A stretch of DNA of 64,000 bases, from the NCBI RefSeq assembly GCF_000949635.1, contig NZ_BAFN01000001.1, forward strand, positions 1,798,001 through 1,862,000. The letters are read 5' to 3'. Made by a program: the position numbers and the translations under genes. Shown in pieces: positions 30,736 through 31,855 of the stretch (positions are counted from its first letter, which is position 1; each line of letters starts with the position of its first letter). Under the pieces are notes generated by a model. It ran no database searches. It had not been told where the DNA came from and worked only from the letters and a program-made list of their open reading frames with translations. Source of the stretch: Candidatus Brocadia sinica JPN1 (GTDB taxonomy: Bacteria; Planctomycetota; Brocadiia; Brocadiales; Brocadiaceae).

Positions 30736-31794
30736 TCATGATATAACGATGATAGACACATTCCTCCTTTCAACTACCTCGCCAACGATATTTGCAGTCA
30801 TAACGCCTCTTTTCTGGAGTTTTGCACAGAGCGCCTCCGCCTTTTCTCTTGGAAGCGAGATAAGCAGCCCGCCTGAGGTCTGCGCATCAAATAGAATGTC
30901 AATCAACGCTTCCGGCACCGTGGAATCTATGGTAATGGCGCCCTTCAAATATTTTTTACTGAGCTTTGATACCCCCGGTATCAATCCCATCTTGACATAG
31001 CGTTCGCAACCTTCAAATACTGGTATGCGTTCAGCGAAGAAGGACAGTGTCGCCTTGCTGGCCTCTGCCATCTCATATGCGTGACCCAGAAGGCCAAATC
31101 CGGTGATATCCGTACAGGCGCTGACTCCTACCTCCAGCATCGTTTCAGAAGCCGTTTTGTTTAACTGGCACATGCTTCTGGTAACAAGGTTTATATCTTC
31201 CTCAAAAACCTTACTGGCCTTGATCGCCGAGATAATCAATCCTGTGCCAAGAGGCTTTGTCAATACCAGCACATCACCTGCCCTGGCGCCTGCATTGGTT
31301 ACGATCCTATCGGGGTGAATGGTTCCTGTAACGGATAATCCATATTTGATCTCATTATCCTGGAGGGTGTGGCCTCCAACAATCGTTGCGCCTGCCTCAT
31401 TGACCTTGTCAGCTCCGCCCTTGAGTATTTCCACCAAAATATCTTTATCCAGAAATTTTAAGGGATAACAGAGGATATTCATGGCCGTAAGGGGCTTGCC
31501 ACCCATGGCATAAATATCACTTAAGGCATTGGCAGCGGCTATTTGTCCATAATCATACGGATTGTTTACCACCGGTGTAAAAAAATCCAGGGTCTCTACC
31601 AGCGCCAGCTCTTCGTTAATCTTATAAATGCCGGCATCGGCGAAGGTCTTTGGGCCAACCAATACCCGATCATTTGGGTAATCGGGTAAATGTTTGACCA
31701 CGTACGCCATGTCTTCGACAGGGATCTTGCCTGCTCACCCACCGCAGGTGGCATAATCAATCAATCGCTTTTTCCCCCAAACCACAGAGATCAC
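30736..31794 (-). CDS. selD: Selenide, water dikinase with in-frame UGA (selenoprotein SelD)
   Basis: From ATG 31710 downward the product is SelD: VGPKTFADAGIYKINEELAL, GGHTLQDNEIKYGLSV and CTDITGFGLLGHAYEM, with a C-terminal AIRS fold. That start would omit the essential N-terminal loop. Upstream in the same frame, a GTG at 31794 (or 31785) leads to IDYATCGG-TGA-AGKIPVED, so the TGA at 31737-31735 occupies the catalytic Cys/Sec position of SelD (xxG-C/U-xxK). The frame is open to a TAA at 31806-31804. SelD makes selenophosphate from selenide and ATP for selenocysteine and tRNA selenouridine. A truncated SelD with a true nonsense codon is less likely. Confidence 0.85.
31708..31722 (-). promoter_or_regulatory. 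Candidate bacterial SECIS hairpin in selD
   Basis: Downstream of the TGA the mRNA can form TGTC-GAA-GACA, extended by an outer CC/GG after one mismatch. The apical loop starts with G 18 bases after the UGA, within the distance known for bacterial SECIS elements. The stem is short, so the call is tentative. Confidence 0.4.
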
Positions 31795-31855
31795 CCCCCT
31801 CTCTTAAAAATGGCAAATACCAATATATAGGTTTTTATGAAATTTTACCTATTGT

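Follow-up and report, generated by a model that had tools for sequence, protein, structure and literature searches.

In the window, a stretch of 64,000 nucleotides of the genome of Candidatus Brocadia sinica JPN1, the minus strand carries selD, a gene for selenide, water dikinase (SelD), whose reading frame contains one internal TGA and stays open before and after it (Table 1). A plain ORF caller starts this gene at ATG 31710 and gives a product of 324 aa in which the catalytic loop is missing, as the original prediction had said of the usual start. When the UGA is read through, positions 31785 to 30736 are translated into 349 residues beginning VVWGKKRLIDYATCGGUAGKIPVED..., and the gene scores 369.8 bits against the TIGR00476 cut-off of 125, covering model positions 1-310 of 311. 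The likely start codon is GTG 31785, which is preceded by AGAGAGGGGGG, and GTG 31794 is a possible alternative. In the gene model corrected in this way, the real N-terminus and the catalytic residue of SelD lie upstream of the naive start.

Table 1. Features of the selD locus (positions in the window) and related genes elsewhere in the genome (contigs C1 and C2).
Feature	Position	Strand	Basis or remark
selD, selenide, water dikinase, 349 aa with predicted Sec17	30736..31785	-	TIGR00476; translation with TGA = U
UGA predicted to be read as selenocysteine, codon 17 counted from GTG 31785	31735..31737	-	E. coli SelD Cys17 position; conservation
selD stop codon TGA	30738-30736	-	read from sequence
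AGAGAGGGGGG, ribosome-binding-like, ~8 nt upstream of GTG 31785	31794..31804	-	read from sequence
Putative SECIS hairpin CC-C-UGUC-GAA-GACA-U-GG	31707..31723	-	structure; synonymous codon conservation
SelB	C1:2873576-2875549		384.7 bits, cut-off 242
SelA	C2:9561-10991		564 bits, cut-off 268
tRNA-Sec, anticodon UCA	C1:3982773-3982865		67.8 bits, gathering score 47
Formate dehydrogenase-type molybdopterin oxidoreductase (FdhA)	C1:1597376-1598641		in-frame UGA at known Sec position
Secreted redoxin and barrel-like fusion	L134:2638-5007; C1 ~524.1-526.5 kb	-	in-frame UGA; outside the window
Multihaem cytochrome, ExtKL-like, next gene of the operon	L134:1345-2505; C1:522847-524004	-	UGA at codon 280

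The TGA had been predicted to lie in frame at the Cys/Sec position, and an alignment with a Cys-type SelD, which had been proposed as a check, places the UGA opposite Cys17 of E. coli SelD with the loop aligned free of gaps (phmmer, PDB 3u0o). The catalytic loop is then GGUAGK, with the predicted Sec at position 17 in a Gly-rich stretch followed by Lys (UxxK). The two proteins are homologous over nearly their full length and differ in that Cys17 is replaced by Sec, and the neighbouring Cys19 by Gly, in the protein described here. Among 77 fetched SelD loci with an alignable loop (from planctomycetes, Firmicutes, Chloroflexi, and others), 75 have UGA and two have a Cys codon at this position (UGA in 29/30 planctomycete loci and in 46/47 further loci from several phyla). 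The column holds UGA or a Cys codon and no other codon, and such Sec/Cys exchange is what a selenoprotein should show. One internal TGA per gene is also present in most full-length SelD matches in 149 genomes of the phylum, and the UGA is conserved at the genus, family, and phylum level; among named relatives, Ca. Brocadia species have the closest SelD (84-86%). This conservation bears on the alternative that the UGA is a true stop, with either a short SelD without the loop being made from ATG 31710 or the gene being broken by a mutation or a sequencing error. The ORF from ATG 31710 is indeed open, yet independent genomes share the TGA at the same codon and the flanking peptide is conserved on both sides of it.

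Downstream of the UGA lies a putative SECIS hairpin, in which a UGUC/GACA stem is extended by CC/GG and the loop GAA starts 18 nt past the UGA. This matches the bacterial SECIS geometry used here (G within the first two loop bases and loop about 16-37 nt after the UGA). A hairpin with a G-starting loop had been predicted to begin 18 bases after the UGA; the hairpin is present and its spacing fits a SECIS, but it is the loop, and not the stem, that starts there. The statistical case from the single sequence failed, since folding is no better than chance against dinucleotide shuffles (z +0.24) or synonymous-codon shuffles (p about 0.7), and this lack of significance is a point in favor of a true stop. 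When 75 loci were pooled with kinship ignored, folding after the UGA gave a mean z of -0.66, and six control offsets farther downstream ranged from -0.30 to +0.01. Synonymous conservation among 23 Brocadiaceae loci reaches 0.87 at codons 5-10 past the UGA, against 0.69 in the rest of the gene, with 3 of 98 other windows equally high, and the sole variable stem codon, for Val, is only GUC or GUU, each able to pair with G. The SelD hairpin, weak alone, is supported as a putative SECIS by synonymous-site conservation and by a modest pooled folding signal.

In the whole genome (4,077,002 bases in three contigs), one copy each of SelD, SelA, SelB, and tRNA-Sec(UCA) was found, and the complete Sec-decoding set (selA, selB, selC, and selD) is thus present. 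The original prediction had implied SelA, SelB, and tRNA-Sec, all of which score above their curated cut-offs, and it had named the absence of selB or selC, or a second intact SelD, as evidence against itself; both selB and selC are present, and no other gene exceeds the SelD cut-off. The best other SelD match (96 bits, below the cut-off) is a HypE-like AIR-synthase paralogue without the Cys/Sec loop, and the remaining matches are ThiL, HypE, and PurM. A second Rfam tRNA-Sec match above the gathering score, at C1:221532, was identified as tRNA-Ser(TGA), and the next lower matches examined are ordinary tRNAs. The selD gene is located apart from selA and selB. Since selA sits on a separate 26-kb contig (C2), its membership of this genome depends on the assembly; selA was also found in every SelD-bearing relative of the order searched. 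SelU (selenouridine synthase) was not found in the genome, so that selenouridine was rejected as a further use of SelD, and because of this absence the selenophosphate is probably destined for Sec. The true-stop reading would leave SelA, SelB, tRNA-Sec, and a UGA-containing FdhA, all of which require selenophosphate, with a sole SelD lacking its catalytic loop or broken, and we consider it very improbable.

Further UGA-containing genes, whose presence had been suggested as a check, were sought via PF00384, PF00578, and PF01521, and the result besides SelD, one gene of a known selenoprotein family (FdhA) and two candidates, is a lower bound for that reason. The FdhA gene has a UGA at the known Sec position in the motif ARTUHAPSVAGL, followed by the hairpin CGUCGCC-GGUCU-GGCGAUG, which has a 7-bp stem and places its loop about 18-19 nt past the UGA. 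In both its UHxP motif and its GGUCU-loop SECIS, this gene is like those of Sec-containing formate dehydrogenases. The five other genomes of the order that carry SelD and were searched all have its UGA too. A HesB-like selenoprotein, the other candidate suggested, was ruled out, as a PF01521 member was not found in the genome. One relative from this order carries a second molybdopterin oxidoreductase whose reading frame includes a TGA (G122:C108:5431-7068).

The search with PF00578 detected a secreted redoxin (match at C1:526063-526419, 63.8 bits) in a two-gene operon outside the window. The redoxin domain is followed by about 600 residues with no Pfam match, a part that looks like a beta barrel. 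The UGA of this fusion gene stands directly before the cis-Pro position (ISETUPQTNTF), is kept in five orthologues with 86-88% identity, and is followed by a perfect 8-bp hairpin, CUUUUGUC-GUG-GACAAAAG, with the loop GUG 21 nt past the UGA. The next gene codes for a multihaem cytochrome, in which the UGA has the context GHRVPTGUPVRG and a strong hairpin, and is kept in six orthologues with 87-89% identity. This cytochrome is a divergent relative of the family NF040886, "multiheme c-type cytochrome (seleno)protein ExtKL"; the match has an E-value of 1e-21 but falls short of the model's cut-off. ExtKL is among the 119 prokaryotic selenoprotein families tabulated in a review (PMC13188914), and the gene cluster that contains extKL in Geobacter also encodes a porin-like protein linked to the reduction of selenite (PMC5877670). 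A redoxin with Sec at the position of the fusion is absent from the same table of 119 families (PMC13188914), and the fusion is a candidate selenoprotein subfamily outside the published families. The two operon genes are more novel than seleno-SelD itself.

A relative of the same family (G088; 4,406,153 bp in one contig, probably Kuenenia) provides a comparison, as neither SelD nor SelA was found in it and none of the molybdopterin oxidoreductases found there contains UGA. SelD, SelA, and the formate dehydrogenase UGA are all missing from this genome, which is the expected joint loss. Two of its molybdopterin oxidoreductases carry Cys at the Sec position; since they are closest to a Cys-type paralogue that is also present in Sec users, they give no proof of a UGA-to-Cys change. 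Its cytochrome orthologue has the Cys codon TGC where the others have UGA, and in its fusion gene (L165, G088:C1:2860500-2865400) an in-frame deletion has removed the redoxin domain and the barrel-like part is fragmented. The Sec machinery of Brocadia, including SelD, quite probably also serves the operon of the ExtKL-like cytochrome and the unlisted redoxin/barrel-like fusion (ETUP), with the relative showing an exit from Sec use in which selA and selD are gone, the cytochrome UGA has become Cys, and the redoxin domain is deleted. A Sec user and a Sec-free relative of the same family constitute a natural experiment on trait loss. The comparison also bears on whether an amino acid other than Sec is inserted at the UGA, by general read-through or an altered code. 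The inserted residue cannot be told from sequence alone, but the stop codon of selD is itself TGA, the in-frame TGAs lie at known Sec positions (SelD and FdhA), a dedicated tRNA-Sec is present along with SelA and SelB, and UGA is missing from the corresponding sites in the relative that lacks SelA and SelD; insertion of another amino acid is thus highly unlikely.

That SelD is itself a selenoprotein with its N-terminus behind an in-frame UGA was the central claim of the original prediction, and the aligned Cys17, the conserved UGA, and the full machinery agree with it. With a probability of roughly 96%, selD is predicted to encode a full-length selenophosphate synthetase with selenocysteine as its catalytic residue 17, where both Sec insertion at codon 17 and SelD activity are inferred. 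SelD would convert selenide and ATP into selenophosphate, SelA would use this to convert Ser-tRNA-Sec into Sec-tRNA-Sec, and SelB would bring the latter to the ribosome at a UGA preceding a SECIS hairpin, so that SelD would be needed for its own synthesis. It would also be needed to make formate dehydrogenase and probably at least two further selenoproteins.

Seleno-SelD is known in other bacteria, as had been stated: it accounts for 38 of 285 bacterial selenoproteins (PMC1794560), its Sec is always at the same position (PMC4561486), and among prokaryotic selenoprotein families it ranks second in how widely it is distributed (PMC13188914). Since seleno-SelD has long been known, Brocadia SelD belongs to an established kind of protein. 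Compared with known Sec-containing SelD (TIGR00476), the residue position, the family, and the in-frame UGA closely followed by a hairpin are all alike and nothing essential differs; the host here is an anammox planctomycete, and the gene is separate from both selA and selB. In the literature searched, no work on how anammox bacteria use selenocysteine was found. Anammox bacteria of the Brocadia type very probably insert selenocysteine at UGA, and such decoding bears on anammox formate metabolism and on the selenium demand of reactors. Sec machinery in other planctomycetes has already been reported (PMC4807772). In another planctomycete genome (G062:C3:82612-86248), we observed two SelD genes flanking selA, one with UGA and one stop-free.
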